This document shows positions 27,349-50,500 of a stretch of 64,000 bases of DNA, one piece after another. Source of the DNA: Pocillopora verrucosa. Its lineage: Eukaryota; Cnidaria; Anthozoa; Scleractinia; Pocilloporidae. The translations under genes and the position numbers were made by a program. Below the pieces are notes generated by a model, which saw only the letters and a list, made by a program, of their open reading frames with translations, made no database searches and was not told the DNA's origin. The DNA lies in the NCBI RefSeq assembly GCF_036669915.1, contig NC_089312.1, forward strand, positions 23,994,404 to 24,058,403, in the 5' to 3' direction. Each line of letters opens with the position of its first letter. Within the stretch, counting starts at the first letter, position 1.

Positions 27349-28617
27349 GTAAGCTGACTTTGTACTTAACCCTGTAAATTATAAGCTGCGACCATACTGT
27401 GAACTTAGGAAAAAATTAGCATTGTCTTTTAAAATGTACTGGCAGGCGCAAACAAACCTGAAGGTTTTCTGTCTTTTCGGTTAACCGTGATGTTAATGTG
27501 GTAGAAGTTGTGGCCTTTTGTTGAGTGGTTGTCGTGTTTGTGATTGGTGACTTGTAACTAAAGATTGTTATGTGAATTAGATCATCGCTCGACTCTGGTC
27601 ACTTTTGTCGTTTCTCAAGGGTAGGGATGGGTGCACGTTCGTACTATCGATGATGGCCTGCGGTAGTCTTTCTAAAGTAACCCAGTCGTTCAAGATTCTG
27701 TTCAAGTACGTTTTAGAAAACGTAAAATCAGCAGAGCTATATGAGAGCGAGTTAAAGTGTCAATTTTTTACAAGTGAGCTTGATAAAGCAAGTTTAACTT
27801 TAAAAAATATATGTATGATAAAATAATTTTATTGTTTTAATTCACTAATGAAAGTGTTACGGAATCCTGGTTTTAACGAAGGCTTTGAATGAGTTATTTT
27901 AGAAAGTTTATTACCCACATTGGAATCAAACTTTTAGCGGAGAGAATTTGCAATGATTAGATGAAAAACCGGAACGTAGAAGTGGACGAAAAGACGTCAT
28001 CTGAAAATTTCATTTACAGCTGAGATAACATTACTCAGACCTGGCGTGACTAGCACGATAATTGGTCACGCTATCGTCTGCCTGTGTATTATATGTACAG
28101 GGAATACACTTGTATGTACAAAACGAGAATCAAATTATGCAATTATAATGTGTAAATAACGTGGATTGCCACCGAGCCTTTCAAGGCCAAAATATTAAAG
28201 TATCAGAGTTGAGAATAGATCGACTTACTAATGAGAGAACAACAGCTGTAGTATTTAAGGACTCAATATTAAATATAGTTGGAAGAAATCTGTCACGCAG
28301 TAAGTGTGCTATTATAATGACTCTCCTTATCTAAATTTCTACCAAAGACATTTCGAGGCTGGAAACTTTCTCAGATGATTCTGGTATCAAGGAACTCACA
28401 TTAAGCTGCTACTGACTAATTAAACTAAATCAAGCTGATTAGTTAGTTGAATGCTATTGACTGTAAAGCGGGACTGTATCACCCTGAACTAAGCGGTCGT
28501 TTATCACAGGGATTGTTGATGAGCGTGAAAGGAACCAATCGAGAAGAAAAGAAATTGAATTTGCGAATTGGTTTCTGTTAATAAACTCTTTTCTTTTCTC
28601 TTTCGGAACTGGACAAT
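27349..28617. other. Intergenic region between PDE3 and KamA-like copy A
   Basis: The genes converge here. It holds the PDE3 3' UTR and, from about 28096 onward, the left part of the duplicated block that recurs from about 40108. No gene is seen. Confidence 0.5.
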
Positions 28618-31600
28618 TTATTGATACTGAAAGAGAACTCCTGAGGAATTTTCAGCGTCCTCTAACCCTTTGAGCTCATTCTCGTAAAAAAACTGCTCTT
28701 CTCCAAACGCCGGTTTTAACTGGTCCAACCATGCTGCTCTCTTGTCGTATTTTGCAAAAAACGGTCGTCCAGTCCATTGAGGATTTCGTGCCTGAAGGAA
28801 TTGCAAGACGAATACCTTTTCATTGGCAACTTCTGCAGTTCCTAACAAATGTACTTTTCCTGGAGCAGCGGACATGGACGGACCGCGCACCGTTCTCGCA
28901 ACTCCGGAAACTCGCCGAATAGCTTCGTGATAGATTCGTGAGGCCTCGACCAGTGGAACTTCAAAATAATGTTTAGCACCAGTGTCCCGCTCTACGAACA
29001 TGTAATAAGGAATCATGCCGAGAGAGAGCTGGGTCTGCCACATTTCAACCCAGACCCACGGGTCTGCATTGACATGATGGATCAATGGAGCCTGAGAGCG
29101 AATGACTGCTCCGGTCATGCGTATCCGTCGGATGGCTTCCCTGACGACAGGTGATTGGAGTTCACGGGGGTGGGACACATGAGCCATGATGGCAAGATGT
29201 CGACCGGACATAGTGACTGTTTCGAACAGCCTGAAAAGTGAAGAAAGTTATTAAAAATAAGTCATGAGAGAAAGGCGATTGATGTGCGAGATAGGGAAGA
29301 GGAGCGAATGCCTTTACCGCTGGTACTCAGTGTTAGCCACAGTTACTTAATTGAAAGATATGGTAAATAAACCCAGATTTCCCTAATATATATATATATC
29401 TTCTCAGTTTTGATTGCCTGTTTTGGACATGACCGGACACAATAGCATTCCAAGAAAATCGCACTGAACTAGCTTAGAAAAAGAGGTATCCCATTAATTT
29501 ACTCAGTCACAGAGTGTGAGCTTAAGAACAAAAGATTGTGCACGGTCTGGGAGCTACCGACATTAATTTCAGAACCGTTGTTTTGATTCTTTTATTTTTG
29601 CAAGCTCTCGTAACTAGTCATTAATCCTACTGACTTTAGGACCTGCGAGAAACTCTAAGGACCAAACGCCGCCATGTAAGTGATCATCATCAAAACCCAA
29701 ACTGAAAAGCATTTAATTTACCGTAGTAAATCGTCAGCGTCATCATTTGTGACATAACGGTAAGGCCAATAAGCAAGAGACTTGGTACCAATCCTGATAG
29801 TCCTTAAGTGGTCGAGTGTTGGATCCTGGAGGAGTGGGTGGATGTATCTTTCAAGCTGTTTTGTTGTCATCACCATAGGGTCACCACCGGTAAATAAAAC
29901 ATCTCTTATTCCTACATGAGAAATTGAGTGAAAACTGATATTTAACGTCATCTCATTAGCTGGGAAAGGAGGATTCAAGTGACTAGTAACGGTTTACATT
30001 ACTTTGCGATCATCTATCTAAATATTCAATCTGCTGTTGAGAATAACCCGAAATTACTTTGGTATCACCTTGCTACAATCGCTGAGATCTCATACCACGC
30101 CCTCAGCCAATCCGATTTTGAACCAAAATATATCATGTCTCGGTCACTCGCGTTTTTCCCACGCTTGGAACTTTTACATGTTCTCATTGGTTTCCTACGA
30201 TATTAACGTGAACAAAGATTGGCTTTTGTGACTTACCAGTCAATCGAAAAAAACTGATCCGTTTCTTGTAATACAGTGATATCAAAAAGAAATTCCCGAT
30301 CCCAGCTAGTCATCGCTCACGGTCGTGTCATAATTTTTATCTTTATTTAAAACATGTACGATGGTAACTGAAATATTTCCAAAATTCTCTCAATCTTGCT
30401 TTAAAAAGGACCAAATCACAATTTATGCAAAGTCGTTACGAACCAATTTGGCCATACATCTGCGTACATTCATGCCGTAGAATGATGCGTAAAGATTTCT
30501 CAAGGCACCACTAAGCCTGCAACTCTACAATCTCGGCTATAATGTTGAGAAAAACTAAGCTAAATGTTCTTTTCTTTCAGTCCTGGCAATATGTCACACT
30601 CTTCTGACACCTTGCAAAAATTGGAAACGTAAAGCACTCTTACGCAACTAAATTTAGTAGCTTTGTTACCTAAATATCATATGACCCGTCAGGCCCTACG
30701 CGTGTGCTTTTATTGAAAAACATGCAAGTATTCCCGAATGTCACATACTACATATGATCACTATCATTATTGTACCCGGATATCCCCGCCGTGGAGGCTC
30801 GATCAGCCAACTATAAGTGGATAACACACGATTGGATTATTGATTGCATAACTACAATGCCAGTGTTCAGATATTGAAGCGATTTTTCAAAAGTGTACCT
30901 TTGTGTTTTCGAATATAACTTGCCAGTTTCTCAGAATCATATGACTGGAAGGCTTGCGGAGATCCAACCGCGGTAAACTGGGCCCAACGGAAACAATACG
31001 TACAGAACGTGTGGCACCACTGACCTATCAAAAGCATTGACCTGTGAGTTACCATGGTCACTGCACAAGGGATTTCTTAATAAAAGCTATCTTGAGACGA
31101 TTACGAACTAACTGAAAGTAGTTTCAATGATGGCACAATGTTTTCTGGCGATACGAATATAATCAGTTTGTCTGTAATTTTAAAGTGCAAGAGTCAGTCG
31201 AGCTAACAGAACAGAGAGCGGAATGGAAGTGAGTGGAGTTCCCTTACAACAAAAAAAATGGTTTTAACTCTCACAGTTTTTTGTTTGTTTTTTTTTTCTC
31301 ACAGTTTTTTTTTAATGAAATAAATTTATTTCATAAAAGGATTCCTTAACGGGAAGGATAAACCCTCTAAAATTTGCTTCGCTTCCCACATGTGGCTTTG
31401 AAGCTCAGTTGGTAGAAGCGGGAAGGCACGGGTGTAAATCCCGTCGAAACCTGAATCTTTTACCATCTTCTTCTAGGCAATTGCTTAAAGTGCAGTCCAC
31501 CTGTGAGCATCATTTCTTTTCTTGAGGTTTAACTCTGTTAAGCACTTCTCTGCGATGTTAGCTGGAAAGTGTGAACGCATGTTAACAACCAAGCTAATAT

Positions 31601-33312
31601 TAGAAAGTAGTGATATACCTTCGGCGGGAAAGAAGAGAACCGTTTCTCGATATTTGTGCTGCATCCCAGGTAGCTCTTCGCCATTCTCACGTGGCACATT
31701 CATAGTTTTCTGGTTGGCTGGATGCGGATTCATGGATGTTCGAATTTTTTCCACTTTTTTTCGAAGAGAAACCCGACTTTTATTATCACGCATGGCATTC
31801 AGGATGTTGTGTAGGTCGTCAGGTGACACCATTCCTGATAAAGAAAAAACACGAAAGGATAAGAAATGAAAAGTGCTATCAACTGTCAAATGTCAAAGGA
31901 AGAGTTCAAACCCTTTACGTAGTTCGTTTAGAAAGTTAGAGCCCCTTAAATTTGTCGGAACACACCTGAGGTGCCCTCAGTAACGCAATTTTCTCATCGC
32001 TAAGGATGGCCAGGAAAGGCAATTATAATAATCATCACTCGAGACTATGATGGAGCTGGATGAACGTAGTTTAATGAGCTAAATCACAAAGGTTATTAAA
32101 ACATGGCCGACTCTACACACCACCAGTCCTCTAGACGCATATCTACTACATTGTAGAAAATACCGCTGATCACTACAGCAATCAATCAGTTTGGCTGAAT
32201 CTATCATATGACTTTTATTTCATTAAGTGCCCTCAAGGGCGCCCAGGGACAAATATTAGTAGCCAAGTCTTCATAATGGGCACAAAATATCAGCGAGTGT
32301 CCATGTATCAATCTATGATGAAATAAAAGATAATTTCGTTTTATCAACCGAGTTAATAATGTGAATTAGGCATAGTATAGATTCTAAAGCTGACGTTTCG
32401 AGCGTTGACCCCTCGTTATAGTGAATCGCGCCTTAAAAGCCCATAACGGTGGCTAATTCACTATCAACGCTGTCAGTAAATTCGCTTGCATGTCTTGCTC
32501 AAGGACAAGTTAAACTCGCCACGATTAACGTGGCTTGACACCTCTTGACGTGGCTATGGCTTAACTAAACCGTTTTATTGCTAACAAAATCCCTAATACT
32601 AAATTCTTGTAGCTTACCTGGTTGTGGAAAGGTGAGTTGAAACATAGGATCATCCGGTACAGCAGACCAGTCGATCAGCTGAGTAACCACGTAATTGTTT
32701 GTGCGCATCGGCAGAACGGATGCCGCTGCTAGGTATGGCAGAGGGTCCACTGACTGAACCCCTCGAGGCCAGTATGTGTTCAATATGGCTGGAATGTGAC
32801 TTTTAGTGTACATTTTCCATTGCAGCGGTTTGATATTTTCACCTGTAAGGATGATATTGCTTAATTGTTTGTGAAGAGTCTTGAAATTAAACCAAGAATT
32901 ATTTGATCAAAGAAAATCGCATCAAATCAAAATCTTTTCGCATTCCATTAGAGCAAAACTTCGCAAAGTCTGTCTGTCAAGAAGTCGATCGATCATGCAG
33001 TCGGTTGGGGTCACAGTCAGTTGGTTTCAAAAAATCACATTTCTCGTGTAACGAAAAGTACAAAGACAGGTTGGTGTGCTACGGTGTATATTTTTAAGTA
33101 CACTTCATTTCTTGTGTGTATAAATGTGAATTTAGTCACAGACCTGCAAAATTTGGAATATATGGGTTAGGAACATTGACGCTGCCAACATCCTTACATG
33201 TAGAATCGTACTTTCTCTCCTCCTGAGTGTTCAGTGTTGACATGAATCTGCGGGTGACCCATCTCCTTGCGCAACCCAGAGAAAGTGGTAAGACCTTGTT
33301 AAACTGAAGCAT
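28618..33312 (-). CDS. KamA-like radical-SAM/PLP aminomutase, copy A (six exons)
   Basis: Minus-strand exons 33144-33312, 32618-32842, 31619-31834, 30899-31024, 29722-29911 and 28618-29230 join in phase to 512 residues. Exon 4 carries the radical-SAM iron-sulfur motif CHTFCTYC (Cys207, Cys211, Cys214) followed by FRWAQF. Exon 5 has FTGGDP (254-257) and RIGTKSLAYWP, both typical of the lysine 2,3-aminomutase family. Exon 6 has SHPREL, VNADPW and a GK pair (Lys434, in SAAPGKV) that is the likely PLP-binding lysine. The N-terminus (MLQFNKVLPLSLGCARRWV, then RRFMST) is Arg-rich without acids for 30 residues, like a mitochondrial presequence. Bacterial KamA moves the alpha-amino group of lysine to carbon 3. 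The substrate here is unproven because pocket residues appear changed. An AATAAA overlaps the stop codon. Orthology to a specific eukaryotic subfamily was not checked. Confidence 0.87.
31388..31452 (+). repeat. Degenerate tRNA-like (SINE head) remnant, copy A
   Basis: GAAGCTCAGTTGGTAG resembles an A box, and a degenerate B box (GGGTGTAAATCCCGTC) follows, then AAACCTGAAT. The anticodon arm is missing. The same remnant lies at 43323-43387 in copy B, so it predates the duplication. Confidence 0.4.
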
Positions 33313-33379
33313 CTTAAAAACCTGAAAACAACTACCAGCGTGTGAGTCTACAGAAAATGTATTTAGCTTTTAACTCAGA

Positions 33380-34010
33380 AATTTTGGTGGCATTAGTACA
33401 TGTAACTGTTGTTATTATCCAACTGCACAAAGAAGAGTACAAATGACGCGCGAATACTGTAAAAATATTTTGCGATATTGTACGGTTATTTGGACAGTTG
33501 GTTATTTTGTACTATAAAAACCTGTTTAACCCTCCAAGCATGTCTAATACCACGGCTTGATACAAGTTGTCTAATGTATTCACGAGTCGTACGACTCCCG
33601 CGAGTCGTCTAATATATTCACGAGTCGTGTGATGTATTCACGAGTCGTACAACCCGTGCCCCTCACTAGGGAGACTACCATTTTTTTACCTCACACATTA
33701 GAAATTTTCGCCAAAAAGTTGCGAGTACATGTAAATGTTATTATCCAACTGCACAAAGTAGAGTACAAATGACGCGCGAATACTGTAAAAGTATTCTGCG
33801 ATATTGTACGGTTATTTGAACAGTTGGTTATTTTGTACTGTAAAAACCTGTTTAACCCTCCAAGCATGTCCAATACCACGGCTTGATACAAGTTGTCTAA
33901 TGTAATCACGAGTCGTCCAATATATTCACGCGTCGTATGGCTTGTACGAGTCGTGTGATGTATTCACGAGTCGTACGACCCGTGCCCCTCACTAGGGAGA
34001 CTAACAGTTT
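33380..34010. repeat. Direct repeat of about 310 bp with ACGAGTCGT palindromic motifs
   Basis: Two head-to-tail copies contain GTAAATGTTATTATCCAACTG-like starts, TGCGATATTGTACGGTTATT, AGCATGTC(T/C)AATACCACGG and end in GTGCCCCTCACTAGGGAGAC. Within each, ATTCACGAGTCGT recurs several times, partly as the self-complementary GAGTCGTACGACTC. A single related copy is at 46180-46460 in copy B. Confidence 0.65.
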
Positions 34011-34203
34011 TTCACCTCACACCACTGATGATCTAATGAAGTCGTTTACTTTTAAAGAGCTTTCTCCGATAAAATGTAACATACAAGAACCTCGATAAAA
34101 CAACATTGTCTGTGAAGACGCTCGCTATTACTAACGCATCGAACAAGTTTGAATGGATGATGATTTTAGATATATGAAATTCATATATTTTCACTGTGGT
34201 GAA

Positions 34204-34570
34204 GAGATGAAATTAAGAGATCCTCGCAGCTAAGAACACTACTGAAACGAGTAGTTGAAAATAGAACCTGAAAAAAATTCAGGCCCGAACAGGATTTGAA
34301 CCCATGACCTCTGCGAGTAATGAACTTTACTTGCCAACTGGGAGCTGGTAAATGTGTTGGGTCCAAATAAACCATCCAAGTAAAGTTCATTACTTGGATG
34401 GTTTATTTAGACTCAACACATTTACCAGCTCCCAGTTGGCTTGTTAGCTCAGCTGGTAGAGCGCTGCACCGGTATCGTAGAGGTCATGGGTTCAAATCCC
34501 GTACGGGCATGAATTTTTTTCAGGTCCTATTTTGAACTACTCGTTTCAGTAGTGTTCTTAGCTGCGAAGT
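34204..34570. repeat. Two tRNA-SINE copies in inverted arrangement (about 360 bp palindrome)
   Basis: The left arm reads CGCAGCTAAGAACACTACTG and onward; the right arm ends with its inverse CAGTAGTGTTCTTAGCTGCG. The centre is near CCAAGTAAAGTTCATTACTTGG (about 34374-34395). The left head is truncated inside the tRNA part; the right head (34438-34509) is complete. The same arrangement is at 47150-47600, so it predates the duplication. Confidence 0.7.
34438..34509 (+). repeat. tRNA-Thr(GGT)-like SINE head
   Basis: This 72-nt block folds as a tRNA: acceptor GGCTTGT pairs with ACGGGC(A/C), and the D arm GCTC/GAGC and T arm GGG/CCC are intact. Read as a seven-base loop, the anticodon loop CCGGTAT gives GGT (Thr), but position 33 is C rather than U and the last anticodon-stem pair is A/C. 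Together with the downstream TGAATTTTTTTCAGG tail this points to a SINE head, not a working tRNA. Confidence 0.6.
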
Positions 34571-36202
34571 TTGAATGGTTGCCACAGAAACAAATGATAC
34601 ATGAATCGAAATGAATATTCATGAATCGACGACTTGTACGACTCGTACGAATCGACACACCATCATCTAGGTTCAGTTCTCCCAAAATGGTGAAAAAATA
34701 TAAGTCTCTCTAATGACATTCATGGATAGACAACAAGAAGAGAGAGCATTTCGACACTTAAATCATCAAATTATAGTGTTCAGAAGATATAATATTTTCA
34801 GATCTTGCCGTGACACTACTAAAGACGATTAACATCTCAAAATAAGTTCACAGTAACATCCACTGACGCATAATTTAATAAAAACTCTTCTTTGCAGAAG
34901 TATCTCAATAGATGTGATCTACTCATCATCAAAGCAATTGAGGAAAATTTTTTTCTTTGTAAAGAGAGAATATCTCTTTTTGAGTTAGCGACTTACACCG
35001 AATAGGGCCGCCATAAATTTGCGAAGCGAGCAAGCAGAAAAATACGATTCCTTTGAGTTATGCAACAGAATGATGGAGCGGAGAAATGGTGGATTAGTGG
35101 AATGGCGGAATATCCAAAAAACGCGTAATGCCTTTTTCTATGAAACTTAAGTCTCAAAAAATGAAATTTCAATAAAATAAGAAAATTATTTATACCTAAC
35201 AGACGAAATTGAAAGAAGTAAAGATACATTTATCATTGCTAAGGCCCAGAGGCTAGAGGAACCATGAGGCGTTCGAGCCAGCCCCTTAAATTGTTATTAT
35301 ATTACTATCGTTATCATAATTATTATTGAGGATATTATCATTTGCTACCATTTAATTATTGGCTGAGTGTCCATTAGATAATATGTTCTTGGACAGGGTA
35401 CTCATAAGTATGTGGGATGCGAACAGTTTTTTGTTTTGCATGTAAGACAAATATTCTGCTACACTACCTTGTAGCGTCATTAGACAACCTCTGATTTATT
35501 TTCAATGCTATAAAAATTGTGTTAAATCAGTAGCCACATGCAGTCTTTGACTGTCTATTTTTTATACGTGAAGCGCAAAAACTACTCGTCAAAAAGCCAG
35601 AGTTGATCTGAATGTGGATGCGCACAATTGACGTAAACAAATACATTTAATTGAAGAGCATTTGAGACCAGTCTTTTGTGTAATTATCTCTAGACTCTAT
35701 AAAACAAGCCTCTTTTTCTTCCATACAAAATGATAAAGATGAAGGGGTGAAGCTCTTGAGCTGGCTTTTTTTTGTAGGCTTTGTTTCTTTTCGACTCAAA
35801 TAATCGGAGGACAAATATTGGAGGTTACTGCGTGATAACCGTCCAGTGATTTTGCATTAAATGACGAAAATTAGCTTTGATGGGTGGGCTATGATGTTGA
35901 ATAATCCCCGAGAAGAAGTCTTAATCAGACACGATTTGCCACCTTTGTTAGTATCACTGCATTAACGTCGACGGCTGAGTCCGTTCCTCCCGGATACCGG
36001 TTCTCGGTAACAAAATAATTGATATAAGACCAGCGGATGATATCAAATTTCGAAATACGAACCTCACTGTCTGTCAGCGATACGGAAACCTCTGACAACC
36101 AACTTGTATTGAGAATCGTGAAGACTTTGCCGTTCATTCATCAACCTGACCGAGTGGCGCTAGAGGCGAGTGACGTGTCAGCAGCTGATCGGCTATATCA
36201 AC

Positions 36203-36235
36203 ACACGTGAAAAAATACGATATTTTTTCACGTGT
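36203..36235. repeat. Perfect 15-bp hairpin with CACGTG at both ends
   Basis: ACACGTGAAAAAATA pairs exactly with TATTTTTTCACGTGT across a 3-nt loop (CGA). Each arm carries a CACGTG E-box. It may be a cruciform, a paired bHLH site or a transposon relic. Confidence 0.6.
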
Positions 36236-36798
36236 CTTGTTACTACTTTTCTCAGGGCCAGAAATCTTTGTATGACACCGCAGTTTATGTGATAAATATG
36301 TCGTACGTGCGCTAGTTTCTCTAAAATCCAAGCGAAGTATACATTCAAAGAAAGCTTGATAAATGCAATTTATGATAAAAATATAATTTAAGCGAGTTTT
36401 CCTTTTGGGAAATATCAGAAGTCGGTAAATACCCTGCTCGTTTAAAGTGGATGTATTCCTCCCAAAATCAAATGCAAAAGGGATTCGTCCGACGATCCGT
36501 GTCAAACTGACGGTTTATTTCAGAAGATTCCATCGATAAACGCTTTTACATAAAAATCAGGAACTTTCAAATTGATTATTTGTTTACCTTCTACGGGTAT
36601 TTCAATAAGTACTTACCTTCAAAGACTAAGAGAGCCGGCCTCAGTTTTATGTAATCTTTAGGTTCAGGTTGATACGTGACAATGCATTAGCCTGTTGACG
36701 AAGTAGACGCCAGTTCTTCGGCTCACCGTATTTCATGAATAGAGATTAAGAAAACATACTTATTGACTAAGTGACGAACTAAGTGGTACAAAGAAATG

Positions 36799-36885
36799 AC
36801 GCACGCACGTACGGACCTTGCACGTAAACCTTGCACGAACGGATATTGCACGTACGAACCTTGCATGTATGGACCTTGCATTGTT
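36799..36885 (+). repeat. Short imperfect tandem repeat (GCACGTACGGACCTT unit)
   Basis: About five degenerate units of 15-18 bp built on CACGTACGGACCTTG: CGTACGGACCTTGCACGTAA, ACCTTGCACGAACGG, GCACGTACGAACCTTGCATG, TATGGACCTTGCATTG. It has no coding sense that I can support. Confidence 0.6.
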
Positions 36886-37119
36886 CCCATTCATGTTGAA
36901 ATTTGTCGGATAGCAAAAAGGTTACTAAGAAAATGCCAGAGAAGCTTACCTGTTATCTCAGTTATAGCCTCAGTTGAAGGAGTGTGACAATAGTAGGAAT
37001 GCAAATTCACGCAGGTTACCGCAAGAGTGGCCTCTAAAATATTGCTGAAAATCGTTTTAATCAAGAAGAAAAAAAAGGTGTTGAAAAACGACAAGTTTTG
37101 ACCCTCGACTAACATCTAC

Positions 37120-37246
37120 AGGTACGGGCCTGAATTTTTTCCAGGTCTTATTTCAACTACTAGTTCAGTAGTGTTTATAGCTGCGAGGATCTCTTACATT
37201 CGTTTCTTCACCGCAGTGAGCACATATGATTTTCATATATTTACAG
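37120..37246 (+). repeat. SINE body fragment without tRNA head
   Basis: It begins GGTACGGGCCTGAATTTTTT and continues with CAACTACT, AGTAGTGTT, AGCTGCGAGGATCTCTTA and CATATGATTTTCATATATTT. This is the same order as the bodies of the SINEs at 47150 and 62667; only the last bases of the tRNA part remain. Confidence 0.65.
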
Positions 37247-37630
37247 GTAAAATATTGTTTTTTTAAAAAGATCAGATGAACTTTGTACACTATAGAATAA
37301 GTGCTCTCTGGCGCATATTCAAGGTTCTCACAAGAAAATTCTTTGGCGCCAGATACGTGGGACAGAAAAACTTTGCGTAAGTGTACCATGTTAACCATTG
37401 AACATCCAACAACTCATCGTCAATTCTTCCCTCGAGCTGCGACACATTTCCTTGCAAATTTGTCACGAAAATTTGGTGTTGGAACACGGGGCTTCCTATT
37501 ACATTTTCATAACTATTTTAAGTTTCTCTTTACGGTCCTGTACAAAGGTAATTTTTTCATGGTTCAACAACAAAACGAATTTACAACAGAATTTGAAAGC
37601 ACCCGTGCAATGATACTTAAACAACTATTC

Positions 37631-37687
37631 GCCTCAGGCTTAGTGAAAATAATAATTATTCCACAATATTCACTAAGACTGAGGTGA
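37631..37687. repeat. 57-bp palindrome (MITE-like hairpin)
   Basis: CCTCAGGCTTAGTGAAAATA is mirrored by AATATTCACTAAGACTGAGG around AATAATTATTCCAC. It is a compact imperfect hairpin without coding content. Confidence 0.55.
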
Positions 37688-39168
37688 GCAATTGCTTAAT
37701 AACTGTTTCTTCGATTGCATGAAACAGAACCGTCGCGAATCTGCTCTATTTGCTTTGCCATTACGAAGTCTTCCAAAATCTAAGTTCTGAATTTGGAGTT
37801 ATCAACCACACAGGCATGCCACAAAAGCTCACCACAAACGCTTCAAACAAAAGCGCTTTAATACTAACCCTTATTATCAGATCACAAATGAAAGTCATTA
37901 GAGCATATCCTAATTACAGCTAAGCTTTCAGGTTAGAAGATTTAATAGCGCACGCGAATGGCAGGAGTCACTCAAGCTATCAACACCTTTAAACGATCGA
38001 CTGCCTTTTGCTTTCCGGCTTACCCGGCATGTCACCGTGCGTATTGTAGAGTTATTCACTGGCCAAGTGGCTCCGTTCATAACTCAAATTCAACTGCAAC
38101 TACTTAGGAAAGTAGATTTACAGAACAATTGAGTATACAATAGTAACGCTGTGTAACGCAACAATTGGCCTTTTCTCGGCCATAATCGGTCTCAAACACC
38201 CGCACTTAAAATGCGAGAAACGCATGTGCCGTTGGAGAGCATTTGAGAGCGTTTGGTCAGGGCTATTAAAGAAGGATCAAAGCGGCCATCCAAATCTTTG
38301 AAAGGCTCCAAACTACGACGTACATCAAATTTGACCTTCTTGAATTCCGGTCACAAATTACATACAAAAAAACAGTGATTGCGTTTATCCTTGAGAACCA
38401 TAGAGTACGCGACAAATACGTACAAAAAATACTTTTACACGTTCAGAATAAATCAAAGTACATTTCCCTTGGTGAAAGGAAAAAGGAACGGCCTAACTTT
38501 CACGGAATGTTAAGTCAAAATCAGCCGAATTCTGCTGCTTTGACCGCCATATTGAAAATGAAGCTACCACAATGCAACGCAATCGGAGTGTACAAACCGC
38601 CTGGTCGTTAGCGGTGCTGGTTGTTTTTCATTTTCTGGGAGGAGTTTGACGAGAAAATTTTTTAAAGGATGATATTTCAGGGATGACGATATGTCATTCA
38701 CCTCTAACTGTGTTTTTAAACTACTTGTCCCCTTACGTTATGTGCTATGAGGCCGGTGCGCTTGCGCGCTGAAACTAAAAAAAAAAAGAAAAAAAAGGAC
38801 GAATTGAATTTGCTGTTCAAAATCTTGTGCCACACATCGGGGAGAATGATCTATACCATTGCATACGATTGTAAGCAAAATCGCTTAAAACTGCCGCAAT
38901 TGAAAACAAAAAAGAAAGATGTCAACGAAGTTTGCTAATTATAGTCCCAACTTTGAAACTGAGTGTTGGCCTGCTTCGTAGCAAGCTTGGATATGACAAA
39001 TAAAACACCTTTGAGAAATAGTTCGAATACATCCCCATGCATCAGTCCCAAAGGTGAACTGTTACCAACTCCATTTTTCTTTTTATCAAGTTACTGTACG
39101 CATAACAAATGATGAGGTTAAACGGAAATATTTCCAGGTAAACAAACAACAAATTAATTGAAAATAAA

Positions 39169-39247
39169 GATTCTAATGTTACGCGAATGCACAACTTTAT
39201 TGGTGGCACTGTCAAAATTATCTAACAGTAATCTAACATTAGAATCT
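39169..39247. repeat. Inverted repeat pair downstream of the desaturase remnant
   Basis: AGATTCTAATGTTA (39169-39182) is repeated inverted as TAACATTAGAATCT (39234-39247), enclosing about 50 bp. On the minus strand that block contains AATAAA. It lies directly after the point where the desaturase frame stops, and may mark a small insertion or foldback involved in the truncation. Confidence 0.5.
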
Positions 39248-39272
39248 AAACTTGGAGAAACTTGCGAGAAAC

Positions 39273-40136
39273 TTAGAGAAACCGCTGTCCAACGGTGAAC
39301 ACCACCGCGATGAAGAGGCCGCCAAGTGAATGGCAAATAAGGTGAAAAAAGATCCTTAGGGCTGCTGTTTCTAACAGCGTCGTGATGTACACCACTGCAG
39401 CATAATGAAGAACAAATGTAGAAATCTCGGCGATCTTCATAGGCAAACCACCAACGTATTTGCGCACAGCTCCAGTTGAAAGAGAAGTGACTGCAGCAGC
39501 CATGATATTCGAGTAAAGGCCATCAGTGGAAGGTAGAAGAACCGGCTTTTGATGCCTTACCATGAATCGCGGAAGGTCCTTAAGATCTTCTGAATCGCCT
39601 TCGATGATCTTCTCCGACCACAGCAGTAAGGGCATCGTCGATGTGTCTGGGTCTCCTCCAGCCTCAGTATGCACCACGTCTGGTGAGGCATGATGGTGGT
39701 TATGCTTGGTTTTCCAACATGCTGTTGAGAAGCCCTGCCAAATGTTACCAATGCAAAGGCCAGCCAAGTTGTTGTTCATGCGATTGGTGAAAACCTGGTA
39801 GTGAAGAAAATCGTGGGCCAGCCAGCCACACTGCTGCCAGAACAGAGCCATCAGAACACCGCATATGACTGCACCCGACATTCCATTCAGCAAAACAATT
39901 GCTGCAACAGCAGAAGCAAGTATGGCGGCATTGGATGTAACCTTAAATGCGTAATACAGCTTAGAAGATTCAAATGCTTTAGCCTTCATCAACTCTGACT
40001 TCATGAAAATAACATCCTGTCTATAATCTGCTTCCATCTGAGCATCTAAGGAAGTTACGCTTGAATCTTTTACCATATCGCTAATGTAAAACCGTGGCAA
40101 TGATTTGTACAGGGAATACACTTGTACAAAATACAT
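39273..40136 (-). pseudogene. Front-end fatty-acid desaturase fragment (both ends missing)
   Basis: A 287-codon open frame matches the central part of the membrane front-end desaturases (delta-5/6/8 type). Present are KSLPRFYISD, QQCGWLAHDFLH (first His box, residues 108-112), KTKHNHHHA (second His box, 145-149), GDPDTSTMPLLLWSEK, several hydrophobic segments and SLGGLFIAVVFTVG near the end. Missing are the N-terminal cytochrome b5 domain (no HPGG) and the third histidine box (QxxHH), which normally follows downstream. Recognisable homology begins at about 40105, where the duplicated block also starts. The active site is therefore incomplete, so this is a gene fragment. Missing 5' or 3' exons elsewhere cannot be excluded fully, although none is seen within the spacer. 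The frame has stayed open, so the loss may be recent. Confidence 0.75.
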
Positions 40137-40638
40137 ATGTACAAAACGAGAATCAAATTATGCAATTATAATGTGTAAATAACGTGGATTGCCACCGAGC
40201 CTTTCAAGGCCAAAATATTAAAGTATCAGAGTTGAGAATAGATCGACTTACTAATGAGAGAACAACAGCTGTAGTATTTAAGGACTCAATATTAAATATA
40301 GTTGGAAGAAATCTGTCACGCAGTAAGTGTGCTATTATAATGACTCTCCTTATCTAAATTTCTACCAAAGACATTTCGAGGCTGGAAACTTTCTCAGATG
40401 ATTCTGGTATCAAGGAACTCACATTAAGCTGCTACTGACTAATTAAACTAAATCAAGCTGATTAGTTAGCTGAATGCTATTGACAGTAAAGCGGGACTGT
40501 ATCACCCTGAACTAAGCGGTCGTTTATCACAGGGATTGTTGATGAGCGTGAAAGGAACCAATCGAGAAGAAAAAAATTGAATTTGCGAATTGGTTGCTGT
40601 TATAAACTCTTTTCTTTTCTCTTTCGGAACTGGACAAT

Positions 40639-43600
40639 TTATTGATACTGAAAGAGAACTCCTGAGGAATTTTCAGCGTCCTCTAACCCTTTGAGCTCAT
40701 TCTCGTAAAAAAACTGCTCTTCTCCAAACGCCGGTTTTAACTGGTCCAACCATGCTGCTCTCTTGTCGTATTTTGCAAAAAACGGTCGTCCAGTCCATTG
40801 AGGATTCCTTGCCTGAAGGAATTGCAAGACGAATACCTTTTCATTGGCAACTTCTGCAGTTCCTAACAAATGTACTTTTCCTGGAGCAGCGGACATGGAC
40901 GGACCGCGCACCGTTCTCGCAACTCCGGAAACTCGCCGAATAGCTTCGTGATAGATTCGTGAGGCCTCGACCAGTGGAACTTCAAAATAATGTTTAGCAC
41001 CAGTGTCCCGCTCTACGAACATGTAATAAGGAATCATGCCGAGAGAGAGCTGGGTCTGCCACATTTCAACCCAGACCCACGGGTCTGCATTGACATGATG
41101 GATCAATGGAGCCTGAGAGCGAATGACTGCTCCGGTCATGCGTATCCGTCGGATGGCTTCCCTGACGACAGGTGATTGGAGTTCACGGGGGTGGGACACA
41201 TGAGCCATGATGGCAAGATGTCGACCGGACATAGTGACTGTTTCAAACAGCCTGAAAAGTGAAGAAAGTTATTAAAAATAAGTCATGAGAGAAAGGCGAT
41301 TGATGTGCGAGATAGGGAAGAGGAGCGAATGCCTTTACCGCTGGTACTCAGTGTTAGCCACAGTTACTTAATTGAAAGATATGGTAAATAAACCCAGATT
41401 TCCCTAATATATATATATCTTCTCAGTTTTGATTGCCTGTTTTGGACATGACCGGACACAATAGCATTCCAAGAAAATCGCACTGAACTAGCTTAGAAAA
41501 AGAGGTATCCCATTAATTTACTCAGTCACAGAGTGTGAGCTTAAGAACAAAAGATTGTGCACGGTCTGGGAGCTACCGACATTAATTTCAGAACCGTTGT
41601 TTTGATTCTTTTATTTTTGCAAGCTCTCGTAACTAGTCATTAATCGTACTGACTTTAGGACCTGCGAGAAACTCTAGGGACCAAACGCCGCCATGCAAGT
41701 GATCATCATCAAAACCCAAACTGAAAAGCATTTAATTTACCGTAGTAAATCGTCAGCGTCATCATTTGTGACATAACGGTAAGGCCAATAAGCAAGAGAC
41801 TTGGTACCAATCCTGATAGTCCTTAAGTGGTCGAGTGTTGGATCCTGGAGGAGTGGGTGGATGTATCTTTCAAGCTGTTTTGTTGTCATCACCATAGGGT
41901 CACCACCGGTAAATAAAACATCTCTTATTCCTACATGAGAAATTGAGTGAGTTGAATTGAGTTACATTACTTTGCGATCATCTATCTAAATATTCAATCT
42001 GCTGTTGAGAATAACCCGAAATTACTTTGGTATCACCTTGCTACAATCGCTGAGATCTCATACCACGCCCTCAGCCAATCCGATTCTGAACCAAAATATA
42101 TCATGTCTCGGTTACTCGCGTTTTTCCCGCGCTTAGAACCTCTACATGTTCTCATTGGTTTCCCACGATATTAACGTGAACAAAGATTGGCTTTTGTGAC
42201 TTACCAGTCAATCGAAAAACAACCGATCTGTTTCTTGTAATACAGTGATATCAAAAAGAAATTCCCGATCCCAGCTAGCTATCGTTCGTCGTGTCATAAT
42301 TTTTAACTTTATTTAAAACATGTACGATGTTAACTGAAATATTTCCAAAATTCTCTTAATCTTGCTTTAAAAAGGACCAAATCACCATTTATGCAAAGTC
42401 GTTACGAACCAATTTGGCCGTACGTCTGCGTACATTCATGCCGTAGAATGATGCGTAAAGATTTCTCAAGGCACCACTAAGCCTGCAACTCTACAATCTC
42501 GGCCATATTGTTGAGAAAAACTAAGCTAAATGTTCTTTTCTTTCAGTCCTAGCAATATGTCACACTCTTCTGACACCTTGCAAAAAATTGGAAACGTAAA
42601 GCACTCTTACGCAACTAAATTTAGTAGCTTTGTTACCTAAATATCATATGACCCGTCAGGCCCTACGCGTGTGCTTTTATTGAAAAACATACAAGTATGC
42701 CCGAATGTCACATACTACATATGATCACTATCATTATTGTACCTGGATATCGATCAGCCAACTATAAATGGATAACACACGATTGGATGAATGATTGCAT
42801 GACTACAATGCTAGTGTTCAGATATTGAAGCGATCTTTCAAAAGTGTACCTTTGTGTTTTCGAATATAACTTGCCAGTTTCTCAGAATCATATGACTGGA
42901 AGGCTTGCGGAGATCCAACCGCGGTAAACTGGGCCCAACGGAAACAATACGTACAGAACGTGTGGCACCACTGACCTATCAAAAGCATTGACCAGTGAGT
43001 TACCATGGTCACTGCACAAGGGATTTCTTGATGAAAGCTATCTTGAGACGATTACGAACTAACTGAAAGTAGTTTCAATGATGGCACAATGTTTTCTGGC
43101 GATACGAATATAATCAGTTTGTCTGTAATTTTAAAGCGCAAGAGTCAGTCGAGCTAACAGAACGGAGAGCGGAATGGAAGTGAGTGGAGTTCCCTTACAA
43201 CAACAAAATTGGTTTTAACTCTCACAGTTTTTTTTTTGTTTTAATGAAATAAATTTGTTTCATAAAAAGATTCCTTAACGGGAAGGATAAACCGTCTAAA
43301 ATTTGCCTCGCTCCCTACGTGTGGCTTTGAAGCTCAGTTGGTAGTAGCGGGAAGGCACGGGTGTAAATCCCGTCGAAACCTGAATCTTTTACCGTCTTCC
43401 TCTAGGCAATTCCTTAAAGTGCAGTCCACTTGTGAGCATCATTTCTTTTCTTGAGGTTTAACTCTGTTAAGCACTTCTCTGCGATGTTAGCTGGAAAGTG
43501 TGAACGCATGTTAACAACCAAGTTAATATTTGAAAGTAGTGATATACCTTCGGCGGGAAAGAAGAGAACCGTTTCTCGATATTTGTGCTGCATCCCTGGC

Positions 43601-45308
43601 AGCTCTTCGCCGTTCTCACGTGGCACATTCATAGTTTTCTGGTTGGCTGGATGCGGATTCATGGATGTTCGAATTTTTTCCACTTTTTTTCGAAGAGAAA
43701 TCCGACTTTCATTATCACGCATGGCATTCAGGATGTTGTGTAGGTCGTCAGGTGACACCATTCCTGATAAAGAAAAACACGAAAGAATAAGAAATAAAAA
43801 GTGCTATCAACTGTCAAATGTCGAAGGAAGAGTTCAAACCCTTTACGTAGTTCGTTTAGAAAGTTAGTGCCCCTTAAATTTGTCGGAACACACCTGAGGT
43901 GCACTCAGTAACGCAATTTTCTCATCGCTAAGGATGGCCAGGAAAGGCAATTATAATAATCATCACTCGAGACTATGATGGAGCTGGATGAATGCATTTT
44001 AACGAGCGAAATCACAAAGGTTATTAAAACATGGCTGATTCTACACACCACCAGTCCTTTAGACGCATGTCTACTACATTGTAGAAAATACCGCTGATCA
44101 TTACAGCAATCAATCAGTTTGGCTGAATCTATCATATGACTTTTATTTCATTAAGTGCCCTCAAGGGCGCCCAGGGACAAATGTTAGTAGCCAAGTCTTC
44201 ATAATGGGCACAAAATATCAGCGAGTGTCCATGTATCAATCTATGATGAAATAAAAGATAATTTCGTTTTATCAACCGAGTTAATAATGTGAATTAGGCA
44301 TCGTATAGATTCTAAAGCTGACGTTTCGAGCGTTGGCCCCTCGCTATAGTGAATCGCGCCTTAAAAGCCCATAACGGTGGCTAATTCACTATCAACGCTG
44401 TCAGTAAAACCAAATTATCTCGTAATATCCCTGCACCGATGCAAAACACCATAATCTCTTAAGAAACTTACCCTTTTTACGTTGAAATACGCTTGCATGT
44501 CTTGCTCAAGGACAAGTTAAACTCGCCACGATTAACGTGGCTTGACACCTCTTGACGCGGCGATGGCTCAACTAAACCGTTTTATTGCTGACAAAATCAC
44601 TAATACTAAATTCTCGTAGCTTACCTGGTTGTGGAAAGGTGAGTTGAAACATAGGATCATCCGGTACAGCAGACCAGTCGATCAGCTGAGTAACCACGTA
44701 ATTGTTTGTGCGCATCGGCAGAACGGATGCCGCTGCTAGGTATGGCAGAGGGTCCACTGACTGAGCCCCTCGAGGCCAGTATGTGTTCAATATGGCTGGA
44801 ATGTGACTTTTAGTGTACATTTTCCATTGCAGCGGTTTGATATATTCACCTGTAAGGATGATATTGCTTAATTGTTTGTGAAGAGTCTTGAAATTAAACC
44901 AAGAATTATTTGATCAAAGAAAACGACCGTTCCTTTTCGCATTCCATTAGAGCAAAACTCCGCGAAGTCTGTCTGTCAAGAAGTCGATCGATCATGCAGT
45001 CGGTTGGGGTCACAGTCAGTTGGTTTCAAAAAATCACATTTCTCGTGTAACGAAAAGTACAAAGACAGGTTGGTGTTCTACGGCGTATTTTAAGTACACT
45101 TAATTACTTGTGTATATAAATGTGAATTTAGTCACAGACCTGCAAAATTTGGAATATATGGGTTAGGAACATTGACGCTGCCAACATCGTTACATGTCGA
45201 ATCGTACTTTCTCTCCTCCTGAGTGTTCAGTGTTGACATGAATCTGCGGGTGACCCATCTTCTTGCGCAACCCAGAGAACGTGGTAAGACCTTGTTAAAC
45301 TGAAGCAT
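40639..45308 (-). CDS. KamA-like radical-SAM/PLP aminomutase, copy B (six exons)
   Basis: Exons 45140-45308, 44625-44849, 43548-43763, 42850-42975, 41741-41930 and 40639-41251 have exactly the same lengths and phases as in copy A and give 512 residues. I count six amino-acid differences from copy A: L10R, K40N, N59Y, V85A, K150E and V153I. All fall before residue 154; exons 4-6 (cluster, PLP and barrel core) are identical in protein. All motifs are kept: CHTFCTYC, FTGGDP, SHPREL and the candidate PLP lysine 434. L10R adds a further arginine to the putative mitochondrial presequence. No stop, frameshift or splice-site loss is seen, so this copy looks functional. The frame is open upstream of the ATG at 45308 without another ATG. 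AATAAA again overlaps the stop codon. Confidence 0.87.
43323..43387 (+). repeat. Degenerate tRNA-like (SINE head) remnant, copy B
   Basis: Counterpart of 31388-31452 in copy A, with the same A-box-like GAAGCTCAGTTGGTAG and GTGTAAATCCCGTC. Confidence 0.4.
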
Positions 45309-46469
45309 CTTAAAACCTGAAAACAACTACTAGCGTGTGAGTCTACAGAAAACTGATGTATTTAGCTTTTAACTGGTGTGATTAATATAGCACTGGAGCC
45401 CCCGATGTTAATGGTCCCTGTTATTTTGTTTTGGTCAGCGCTAAGTAATTTAAAGTCACAGCTTGACAATATTTTGAATTGCAGAAATTGTAACAAATGA
45501 AATTGGTCAGGAATGAAATCATCTCAGGCCTAACTTATATGAATGAGATAAAGAAAGGTTCTATTTTGTGAGAGATTTTTTTTTTCAGAGAGAGGTCTTA
45601 TGGACCGATAAATACCTCACCAGTAGTATCAAATGGTCTATGTGGGAGTTTGCGTGATCACGAGAAAGCGAAACTAGCCTTTTTCCTACGAGACTGAGTA
45701 TCGAAAACCTTTAAAGAATAACGACGCCAAGACTTCAGGGATTTTCGTGCCTTGTTTCGTGATTCACAAATCGGACTCCTGCCTGGCATTCGTCCATTTT
45801 GTTAAGCACTCGTATGATAACAGACCGAATTGGACACCACATAGTCCTATTACCATTATCAATTAAAACTATAATAAAACGTTTCGAACGCGATTGGTTA
45901 TCACCAGCCCGATTTGAACACCAATAGGACATTGTACACGTCATGCTTGTAATTGGACAGTGTAATAGGGCAGTTTACTCGTCATGCCTGTGTTAAGCCC
46001 CGTTCAAAGGGTCATGATGGTTGATGATAGTCGACGATAGTTTTAACTTTCATTCACTGTCATTGAATATCATGTTTGCGTTCAAACGGTTCATGATAGT
46101 TGATGACAGTTGACAAAATAAGGCAATGAGATCGCGTAATTGTAACCAAATACGGCAGGCGCTTCAGTCAGCAATTTTGGTGGCATTAGAAATTTTCGCC
46201 AAAAAGTTGCGAGTACATGTAAATGTTATTATACAACTGCACAAAGAAGAGTACAAATGACGTGCGAATACTGTAAAAGTATTCTGCGATATTGTACGGT
46301 TATTTGGACAGTTGGTTATTTTGTACTGTAAAAACCTGTTTAACCCTCCAAGCATGTCCAATACCACGGCTTGATACAAGTTGTCTAATGTATTCACGAG
46401 TCGTACGACTCCCACGAGTCGTCCAATATATTCACGCGTCGTATGGCTTGTACGAATCGTGTGATGTAT

Positions 46470-46470
<1 letters not shown>

Positions 46471-46516
<46 letters not shown>

Positions 46517-46902
46517 TAACTTTATTTAACGAGGGTAAAGACATTGATTACTGGTCACCCTGTAGTTTTCATAATGGCCCTCCTACAATTAAAGTACTAA
46601 AATGTATCGATTGAATAATTGACTACCTATATAATCTACAAACTAAAATTACATTAAGAACTACTATTAATACAATATTGATTGATTTACTACTAATGAA
46701 ACTAAAAAGTTTTACAAATCTTAAAATGATCAAGAAAAGAAGTCATACTACGGTAAAATTTAACTAAGTAATTTTTAAAATTAGTATGAGAGAGTGTCCT
46801 TGGTTCGGGATCAAGAGCGTTCCACAAACGGCAAGCGCTTGAGTGAAACGTTCTAAGGCCAGAGTTCCTTTTACAAGCTGGTGTTGTAATATTGTTAATA
46901 AA
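46471..46902 (-). mobile_element. 5'-truncated LINE (non-LTR retrotransposon) 3' end with (TTAC)n tail
   Basis: On the minus strand an open frame gives a typical non-LTR reverse-transcriptase C-terminus (CKRNSGLRTFHSSACRLWNA, then LDPEPRTLS), ending at a stop, then a short 3' UTR with AATAAAG and a TTAC microsatellite tail (about 46471-46517 on the plus strand). A 7-bp target-site duplication, ATGTATT, flanks it (46464-46470 and 46903-46909). Copy A has the empty site (GTGATGTATTCACGAG), so insertion followed the segmental duplication. The simple-repeat tail is reminiscent of the CR1/L2 group, but the clade is a guess. Confidence 0.85.
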
Positions 46903-47224
46903 ATGTATTCACGAGTCGTACGACCCGTGCCCCTCACTAGGGAGACTAACAGTTTTTCACCTCACACCACTGATGATCTAATGAAGTCGTTTACTTTTAA
47001 AGAGCTTTCTCCGATAAAATGTAATACATACAAGAACCTCGATAAAACAACATTGTCTGTGAAGACGCTCGCTATTACTAACGCATCGAACAAGTTTGAA
47101 TGGATGATGATTTTAGATTTATGAAATTCATATATTTTCACTGCGGTGAAGAGATGAATTTAAGCGATCCTCGCAGCTAAGAACACTAAACGAGTAGTTG
47201 AAAATAGGGCCTGAAAAAAATTCA

Positions 47225-47296
47225 GGCCCGTACGGGATTTGAACCCATGACCTCTGCGATACCGGGGAAGCGCTTTACCAGCTGAGCTAACAAGCC
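47225..47296 (-). repeat. tRNA-like SINE head (copy B, left)
   Basis: A full 72-nt tRNA-like block on the minus strand, with A box TTAGCTCAGC, B box GGGTTCAAATCCC and acceptor GGCTTGT/ACGGGCC. The anticodon stem is damaged (TTCCCCGG), consistent with a SINE and not a tRNA gene. Confidence 0.55.
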
Positions 47297-47461
47297 AACT
47301 GGGGGCTGGTCAATGTGTTGGGTCCAAATAAACCATCCAAGTAATGAACTTAACTTGCTAACTGGGAGCTGGTAAATGTGTTGGGTCCAATTAAACCATC
47401 CAAGTAAAGTTCATTTATTGGATGGTTTATTTGGACCCAACACATTTACCAGCTCCCAGTT

Positions 47462-47533
47462 GGCTTGTTAGCTCAGCTGGTAGAGCGCTGCACCGGTATC
47501 GCAGAGGTCATGGGTTCAAATCCCGTACGGGCC
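47462..47533 (+). repeat. tRNA-Thr(GGT)-like SINE head (copy B, right)
   Basis: A 72-nt tRNA-like fold with a seven-pair acceptor stem GGCTTGT/ACGGGCC (two G-T pairs), intact D and T arms and a CCGGTAT anticodon loop. It is followed directly by TGAATTTTTTTTTCAGG, so it is part of the SINE. Confidence 0.6.
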
Positions 47534-50500
47534 TGAATTTTTTTTTCAGGTCCTATTTTCAACTTACTCGTTTCAGTAGTGTTCTTAGCTGCGAAGTTTC
47601 AATGGTTGCCACAGAAACAAATGATGCATATCGTTTCCATGGTTTCCGTAATGAATATTCATGAATCTACGACTTGTACGAATCATACGAATTGACACAC
47701 CACCATCTAGGTTCAGTTCTCCCAAAGTGGTGAAAAAATATTTAAGTTTCCCTAATGACATTCGTGGATAGACAACACAGCCTCACGACTCGTTTCGTTT
47801 CCATGGTTTCTGTAATGAATATTCATGAATCGACAACTTGTACGACTCGTACGAATCGACACACAACCTTCTGGGGTCAGTTCTCTTATGACATTCATGG
47901 ATCGACAGCACGGCCCCAGACTCATTTCGTTTCCATGGTTTCCGTAATGAATATTCTTGAATCGACGACTCGTAAATACATTAGACGACTCGTACGGTGC
48001 GTACGACTTGTGAATACATTAGACGACTTGTATCAAGCCGTGGTATTGCACATTTAACCAGTCGGCTGCACGCGCTACGTTTCTCTATCCGCTAAGTCAG
48101 TGTAGTCGAATCAAGTATCATTACAAAAAATTTGGGCGTGGTATTTGTTTTCGACATTTTAACTGTGTGATGTGTTTCAATAACCGCTAGTTGCGCTCGT
48201 CTCGTTAGGATCAAGATGCATTACTTGTGTAGTTACGTGTTGTTCCTTTGTAAACGATCGCCTGCCTCACCAAAAATGCACAATTTAAAAAGGAAAATTT
48301 TCATCTCTATTTATTGTATGTCGTTGTTAGCGTTGTTTAAGTCAGCCCTTTTAGGTGGTCTTGCGGTTAATTTCGTCTTTGTACGGCGGCAAATGCATCG
48401 TCAACGAAGCTTAATCAAAGCAGTATTAGCACTGTAATGATTGAAGGGGATACCGTAACTTTTGTCGGTAAGTCGTCTGGGTAAGTTTTCTTCGAGGTTT
48501 TGCATTACATTTTCTGCGATAATAACAGAAACTGTGGACCTCATAGCCGTTCTTTGCGGCTATTTATGATGTTCACCGTTACTATGTTTACCATCCAGTT
48601 GAGTTTATCTCCTTTTATGATTTCTGGCTCATAGCCACCAGCACATTACGTTTTCAGTTCTTGCTGTGACACTACAGAAGACGATAAACATCTCACAATC
48701 ATTTCAGGATTGCGAGCGATTAAAAATAATAGTTTTCCTTGCAAAAGTATCTTAATTGGTAAGATCGCGGCATCGTGAAACTAATTTCGATAAACAATTT
48801 TCTTCCTAGAAGAGAGAGCATTTTGCTGCTTAAATCATCAAATTATACCGATCAGAAGGTGTAATATTTTCAGATCTTGCCGTGACACTACTAAAGACGA
48901 TGAACATCTCAAAATAAGTTCACAGTAGCATCCACCGACGCAAAATTTAAATCAAAACTCTTCCTTGCAGAAGTATCTCAATAGATGTGATCTACTCATC
49001 ATAAGAGCCATTGAGGAAAATTTTTTTCTATGAAAAGAGAGAATTTCTCTATTTGAGTCAGCGACTTATACCGTATAGCGCAGCCATAAATTTGCGAAGC
49101 GAGCAAGCAGCAAAATACGATTCCTTTGAGGTATGCAACAGAATGATGGAGCGGAGAAATGGTGGATTAGTGGAATGGCGGAATATCCAAAAAAACGCGT
49201 AATGCCTTTTTCTATGAAACTAAAGTCTCAAAAAATGGAATTTGAATAAAATAAGAAAATTATTGATACCTAACAGACCAAATTAAAAGAAGGAAAGATA
49301 CATGCAATCATTGCTGGGGCCGAGAGGATAGACGAACCATGAGGCGTTCGAGCCAGCCCCTTAAATTGTTATTATATTACTATCGTTATCATAATTATTG
49401 TTGATGATGTTATTATTTGCTTTCATTTAATTATTGGCCGAGTGTCAATTACATAATATTTTCTTGGACGGGGTACTCATAAGTATGAACAATCACTCAT
49501 TGTGAAATTACAAATATTGACATCAAAAACATCTTTTTGTTCGAATACTTACAAAGAAAAATACGGCATGATACATGCAATTATGCTCTATGAGGCAAAA
49601 CCTCTCGAAATTGTTTCTTCAATGTATGGAAGAACATTTGAAATGGTTTTGTTTACCAAACGGCTTATTCCATCGCTCAGTAAATGCAAACGTATCAAAA
49701 TGGTAATTCGGAAATGATTCACGGCTTGTTTGGACTACCGGAATGGTTCTTTCGATTTCCTATTGTTATTGCGTCAAGTGGAAAGCAAGAACTCCTTAAC
49801 AATTTGTATATAGATATTTATATAATAAGCTCAGTTATGCGTGCATTCTGATTTGTTCTCATTTATGATCTATTGGAGGACAGACGTATAGATGACGTCA
49901 TCATCAAAATTTTTTTTAATTCTTTATTATATAAAACAAATAGATTCCAAGTTGCCGTGCGTCTGTTTACCGAACGGCCGGAACGTCGTGGATAAAACTC
50001 GTCCAGAATAGTCCAGAGTTGGCCTCTTCGTTACGTCCTTATAGAACACTTAACTACAAATTCACGTCGAGACATTGTATTCTGTGGATCCTCTTACGGA
50101 GAGTTCATCTTTAGGTATACCAATTCTACGCTGCTTTTATATATATATATATATTGTTATTTTGTGAATCGTGCAGTTTTGGCATTGTTTTTATTTATTG
50201 CTATCTATTGTTCATTTCGAGAATGTATTGACCTTGACGGTGCACACGTTTCTTAAATGTTCGAAATGGGCGGTAATATTTAGTGATAGCATCAGTGGTA
50301 ATAAAGATTTCGAGACAACTTCCACTCTAATTAGCCAAAATACCAGTATTGAGACTAGCGGCATGATTTGTATTGTCTGGTTCAGAAATATATATGAACA
50401 GGATATTAAGTGTTACTGTTGTATTTCGAACATTCAAAAATTGCGTCAGTTCTATCCATCTTGTACCCATTCGAGAGGTCAGGCTGAGTATACAGCCGCA

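Follow-up and report, generated by a model that had tools for sequence, protein, structure and literature searches.

Two copies of a radical-SAM aminomutase gene in the coral Pocillopora verrucosa: a candidate glutamate 2,3-aminomutase

Background

What does a gene for a radical S-adenosylmethionine (SAM) enzyme of the KamA type do in an animal genome, where it stands in two copies, and on which amino acid would its product act? The question is raised by a 64,000-nucleotide stretch of the genome of the coral Pocillopora verrucosa (the window; C1:23994404-24058403, contig C1 being tens of megabases long), which carries two complete minus-strand genes of this type at 28618..45308. It turns out that these are real, intact, duplicated coral genes belonging to a distinct radical SAM, pyridoxal phosphate (PLP) subfamily with the fold of lysine 2,3-aminomutase (LAM). 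Each most likely encodes a mitochondrial, PLP-dependent aminomutase converting L-glutamate to beta-glutamate (3-aminoglutarate), a reading to which we assign a probability of about 0.55. What we infer here is the substrate, the activity, the mitochondrial location, the electron donor and the physiological role (as an osmolyte source or in glutamate and nitrogen handling).

To our knowledge, the list of radical-SAM enzymes in animals is short. Literature searches, some of them loosely worded or not directed at animals, brought up no title or abstract on an animal KamA enzyme among the papers listed. The accessible portion of a coral KEGG annotation paper (PMC3750612) does not contain the word 'aminomutase'.

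Results

Each gene comprises six exons and 512 codons, all on the minus strand. In copy A, exon 1 (33144..33312) provides the start codon and a presequence-like N-terminus and is followed by exons 2 (32618..32842) and 3 (31619..31834); exon 4 (30899..31024) encodes the CxxxCxxC cluster motif CHTFCTYC and Arg216, exon 5 (29722..29911) encodes TGGDP, and exon 6 (28618..29230) encodes VERDTG with Arg390, GPSMSAAPGK with Ser427 and Lys434 (the equivalent of the PLP-binding lysine), and the stop codon. The six exons of copy B, obtained likewise by splicing of the minus strand, are 45140..45308, 44625..44849, 43548..43763, 42850..42975, 41741..41930 and 40639..41251. All introns (10/10) are of the GT-AG type, with identical phases in the two copies. 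The proteins differ at 6 of 512 residues and the coding sequences at 14 of 1539 bases (8 synonymous and 6 nonsynonymous changes), and both proteins contain CHTFCTYC (Cys207, Cys211 and Cys214), FTGGDP, RIGTK and SAAPGKV. Splicing thus confirmed the two intact six-exon genes with ordinary introns described in an initial annotation of the window.

Among the matches listed, the nearest named homologue is an Acropora protein. Two database proteins, P0001 (99% identical to the coral protein) and P0002 (78% identical, 513 residues), have the source tag lgn, which we take to denote assembled public reads. Because the longest contig in the P0002 cluster, at 1699 bases, is too short for introns of the coral type, P0002 points to a spliced transcript from a relative.

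The coral proteins have the CxxxCxxC motif in a radical SAM barrel that marks the KamA superfamily fold group. The sole solved KamA structure matching them is LAM (KamA/AblA) of Clostridium subterminale (PDB 2a5h), with 20% identity over the structural alignment; the matches ranked below it (viperin, RlmN, PFL activase and others) were taken to reflect the common radical SAM barrel. Against the NCBIfam KamA subfamily model TIGR00238 the coral protein scores 117.3 bits, below the cut-off of 199.2, and it lies far below the cut-off of the EpmB model.

LAM works by a radical mechanism, in which Lys337 forms the Schiff base with PLP, Arg134 binds the substrate carboxylate and Arg116 has an active-site role. 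We counted the corresponding residues in 246 sequences (164 database proteins, 80 bacterial loci and the two coral copies), which are near relatives by construction. The cluster cysteines and Lys434, the equivalent of Lys337, are present in 246/246, and Arg216, the equivalent of Arg134, in 245/246. Together with the structure match, these counts support the KamA-type fold and catalytic residues proposed initially. The two sites that in LAM are occupied by Asp293 and Asp330 are Arg390 (246/246) and Ser427 (241/246) in this family. Glu389 is kept in 235/246, Arg421 in 245/246 and Arg424 in 238/246, and the C-terminal motif RTxRGPSMSAxPGK is kept across the family.

A comparison alignment took in two loci above the AblA cut-off (from 25 genomes), 16 of 49 places above the cut-off for the glutamate 2,3-aminomutase of Bacillota (TIGR04368; from 119 genomes), other KamA-type loci and E. 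coli EpmB. No gap interrupts the segment that runs from PYY up to and including LAM Asp293 in the profile and multiple alignments, which place Arg390 opposite Asp293. At the two side-chain sites the glutamate-type loci (16/16) carry Lys and Asn, a pair that the SFLD paper (PMC3965090) uses against Asp/Asp to separate glutamate from lysine enzymes. The coral family resembles the glutamate enzymes in having a basic side-chain residue and an uncharged residue at the 330 site, and differs in the residues themselves (Arg and Ser) and in forming a separate clade (100/100). EpmB, which shares the KamA superfamily, has Asp and Glu at the two sites and falls in the outgroup. An invariant Arg at the Asp293 site therefore predicts a substrate with an anionic side chain and disfavours lysine.

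Bacterial members of the family point in the same direction by analogy. According to PMC11284099, beta-glutamate is an intermediate in the biosynthesis of incednine and is decarboxylated by IdnL3. The same review names IdnL4, a radical SAM protein, as the probable glutamate 2,3-aminomutase; its involvement was confirmed by disruption, although in vitro activity was not seen. We compared 18 actinomycete loci, 17 of them strong class-sample matches outside our Nocardiopsis list. All 17 keep Arg390, Arg216, Lys434 and the cluster cysteines; site 427 is Ser in 12 and Val in five (L156, L158, L159, L160 and L161), which may form a subgroup whose pocket differs. At L150, L159, L160 and L161 the family gene adjoins a gene for a related fold-type-I PLP enzyme. 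AMP-binding enzymes are encoded at L150, L159 and L161, a VinK_C acyltransferase and an alpha/beta hydrolase at the near-identical L160 and L161 (the L161 hydrolase exceeding the cut-off of the proline-iminopeptidase family), and polyketide synthase (PKS) modules at L161. This gene set resembles that of beta-amino-acid macrolactam loci and makes the four loci candidate macrolactam clusters. By gene neighbourhood, the PLP enzyme may be an IdnL3-like decarboxylase and IdnL4 a member of the family; IdnL4 itself serves bacterial secondary metabolism. The eighteenth locus, the weaker L163 (8947-10074, minus strand), holds a distant relative with 33% identity and without the family motifs, possibly of a separate KamA subfamily.

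Production of beta-glutamate is also reported for Nocardiopsis halophila (PMC1224877) and for Nocardiopsis (PMC5884947, a report repeated in PMC10513789). Beta-glutamic acid and glutamic acid are isomers and share one exact mass (PMC8269262). The family is present in 40/40 genomes of the genus to which the L062 genome (Nocardiopsis sp. FR4) belongs. The glutamate-enzyme model gave no match above its cut-off in these genomes (0/40); 38 have a single match, G165 has two, both at family loci, and G172 has one extra weak match (E 5e-4). In the class-wide sample some match was found in 74/197 and a strong one (E < 1e-180) in 22, five of which are also in the Nocardiopsis list. The macrolactam-like loci and Nocardiopsis would together indicate glutamate as the substrate.

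Gene neighbours were surveyed in the best 80 of 583 confirmed bacterial loci, up to 10 kb on each side, with mechanical picking of reading frames that performs poorly in G+C-rich loci such as L062. Clustering placed an MFS-type gene downstream in 11/80 loci (one member scanned by profile) and class III aminotransferase-type genes near 10/80 (three scanned), that of L064 being BioA. Genes of this type lie near L012, L016, L018, L023, L029, L034, L040, L047 and L069 (L016 and L040 scanned), a possible pairing for beta-amino acid degradation. A branched-chain aminotransferase and TauD lie near the family gene of L052 (Pseudomonas), asparagine synthase near those of L059 and L074, and an amidase near that of L061. 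Such neighbours would fit the making, export, amidation or degradation of some beta-amino acid, without fixing which.

The homologue search returned at least 7999 scored proteins. In a bootstrapped tree of 62 rows, with AblA, glutamate, EpmB and other KamA rows as the outgroup, the coral-type family separates at 100/100, and the branch between it and the 13 sampled KamA rows measures 3.82 + 3.82 changes per column. A clade with the eukaryotic rows (animals, fungi and protists, plus metagenomic rows) has support of 99/95. Within it, the animals and one further row form a group (97/95) in which the corals (100/100) stand beside Lingula and Branchiostoma (95/74), and the fungi (97/95) divide into basidiomycetes and ascomycetes. 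Two quick trees recovered the animal group at 97 with varying inner order and the fungi at 78 and 96, while rows P0035 and P0127 switched sides between trees.

The eukaryotes are nested among bacterial members (88/72 and 94/78). The great length of the outgroup branch leaves a direction from bacteria to eukaryotes only moderately supported. Most simply, the gene would predate the cnidarian-bilaterian split and have been lost widely, with no recent acquisition by corals, and a transfer, if any, would have been into an early eukaryote. Of the ancient transfer suggested initially, the old origin is thus retained with moderate support, and a transfer into this animal lineage is not.

The N-terminus of the coral protein is free of acidic residues and has five to six Lys/Arg in 30 residues. 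A similar N-terminus recurs in several orthologues from fungi and animals and is absent from others (for example P0009, P0121, P0015 and P0022), and the bacterial members have basic and acidic counts of 4.8 and 2.2. Residues 1-50 have low model confidence in the predicted structure. Because the N-terminus is presequence-like, a mitochondrial location is likely, so that the initial suggestion of a mitochondrial enzyme agrees with composition and model confidence, with the location itself a prediction. Four homologues that the tree places with the eukaryotic rows (P0012, P0017, P0051 and P0065) have a 2Fe-2S ferredoxin domain fused at the N-terminus, and this fusion suggests ferredoxin as the electron donor.

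Self-comparison of the window showed that the duplicated unit extends over 28113..33375 on the copy A side and 40136..45374 on the copy B side (both minus strand). Identity is 99.3% between 28113-29931 and 40136-41950, from the 3' flank through exon 5, and about 95% in the rest of the unit. Between the copies, 11 of 736 bases differ in exons 1-4, as against 106 of 2561 aligned bases in introns 1-4, and intron 5 with the 3' flank diverges by 0.6%. Because exons 1-4 diverge less than introns 1-4, the coding sequence of both copies looks constrained. The 3' end is likely a recent gene-conversion tract, and the likely history is an older tandem duplication followed by this conversion. A six-frame search of the genome (353,415,432 bases in 52 contigs) with P0001 gave 12 matches, six exons for each copy, and no other.

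Between the copies, at 39273-40157 (minus strand), lies a fatty-acid desaturase reading frame that consists of one exon and runs for 294 codons from stop to stop. It spans positions 6-179 of the 253 in the FA_desaturase profile, its closest other match in the genome (68% identical) is on contig C5, and it is possibly a truncated copy. Related direct and inverted repeats of 150-450 bases at 33395-34567, 46184-47594 and 62655-63060 probably represent a mobile element family, and repeats lie near the upstream end of both copies. At 2464-3708 (plus strand), 415 codons without interruption form a reading frame like that of dCMP/cytidine deaminases; it has many homologues, those named among the matches listed being from the corals Stylophora, Oculina, Montipora and Acropora.

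Discussion

Several observations weigh against glutamate as the substrate. The coral protein scores only 77.8 bits with TIGR04368, against a cut-off of 650, and 244/246 sequences have Thr196 at the site of LAM Arg116, so that binding of the PLP phosphate may differ. A single-sequence pairwise alignment has a gap near the Asp293 site and places Glu389, not Arg390, opposite it. Three of the four PLP-enzyme loci (L159-L161) have Val427, leaving L150 as the one locus that combines this neighbourhood with the coral-type Ser427, and IdnL4 is assigned to the family by its neighbourhood and not by sequence; our confidence is lowered slightly because Val427 occurs in five of the 17 actinomycete members. 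The link with Nocardiopsis is a correlation, and another route to beta-glutamate is possible, because nuclear magnetic resonance is reported to have ruled out a glutamate aminomutase route in methanogens (PMC1224877). A conserved operon partner naming the pathway was not found among the 80 loci, where neighbours recur within groups only, and the MFS, class III and branched-chain aminotransferase, TauD, asparagine synthase and amidase genes point elsewhere. The named carriers include soil-type bacterial genera and land fungi, which argues against a purely marine osmolyte role.

An enzyme of the same class could instead act on another anionic or polar substrate, such as alpha-aminoadipate, cysteate, cysteine sulfinate or a glutamyl-containing molecule, and yield a different beta-amino acid. 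Arg390 would suit any anionic side chain, Ser in place of Asn, Val427 in the PKS-associated members and the kept Arg421 and Arg424 make the pocket unlike that of known glutamate enzymes, and no general bacterial neighbour fixes the substrate; we nevertheless consider this unlikely, though deserving of attention, since the macrolactam-like loci and Nocardiopsis both indicate glutamate. It is improbable that the protein, as a radical SAM/PLP enzyme with the LAM fold, has lost aminomutase activity and become a lyase, a racemase or a modifier of a protein or bound substrate. The very long branch, Thr196 and the family's own C-terminal motif would suit such an enzyme, but the cluster cysteines, the carboxylate arginine and the PLP lysine are kept almost everywhere, and the idnL4 genetics fit a mutase, if IdnL4 belongs to the family.

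The initial emphasis on lysine and beta-lysine is not borne out, and we regard this substrate as very improbable. It has in its favour the database name 'putative L-lysine 2,3-aminomutase aq_1632' of the Acropora and Branchiostoma proteins, the standing of LAM as the only matching solved structure, and the pairwise alignment, which would keep an acidic residue at one lysine site; against it, the lysine-binding Asp pair is replaced by Arg and Ser, and the AblA model gives 81.5 bits against a cut-off of 525.4. Least credible of all is a recent horizontal gene, a contaminant or, for the second copy, a haplotype artefact. Bacterial proteins are up to 64% identical among the matches listed, and the two copies lie 12 kb apart on one contig, but spliceosomal introns, the size of the contig and the grouping with animals within the eukaryotic clade argue for a resident gene, as first proposed, and a simple allelic duplication is disfavoured by the 3.3-5.2% divergence of introns 1-4 and by the differing flanks, with a small probability of an artefact left for copy B.

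The conversion of glutamate to beta-glutamate, a compound that the initial annotation already named as one to look for, thus fits the residue replacements and the bacterial kin best. After removal of the presequence in the mitochondrion, a 4Fe-4S cluster on Cys207, Cys211 and Cys214, reduced by ferredoxin, would cleave SAM. The 5'-deoxyadenosyl radical would then take the beta-hydrogen of glutamate held as a PLP aldimine from Lys434. Arg216 would hold the alpha-carboxylate, and the side-chain carboxylate would be held by Arg390, which replaces LAM Asp293 and the Lys of the glutamate enzymes. The amino group would move from C2 to C3 via an azacyclopropylcarbinyl-type radical, SAM would be re-formed and beta-glutamate released. 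Present in an early eukaryote, the gene would have persisted in corals, in amphioxus and in a brachiopod, with a duplication in this coral.

Conclusions

Tentatively, at just short of even odds, we propose that beta-glutamate is made in the mitochondria of some animals (corals, amphioxus and a brachiopod) by an ancient, vertically inherited radical-SAM/PLP mutase that most animals have lost, and that the bacterial, fungal and animal family, often called 'lysine aminomutase', is misnamed. If so, beta-glutamate would be an unrecognised native metabolite of animals, testable in reef corals, and the substrate name of a large family would be corrected to glutamate 2,3-aminomutase. A radical-SAM amino-acid mutase would join the animal radical-SAM enzymes, and it would allow one to study how a radical mutase that is sensitive to oxygen functions in a symbiotic animal rich in oxygen.

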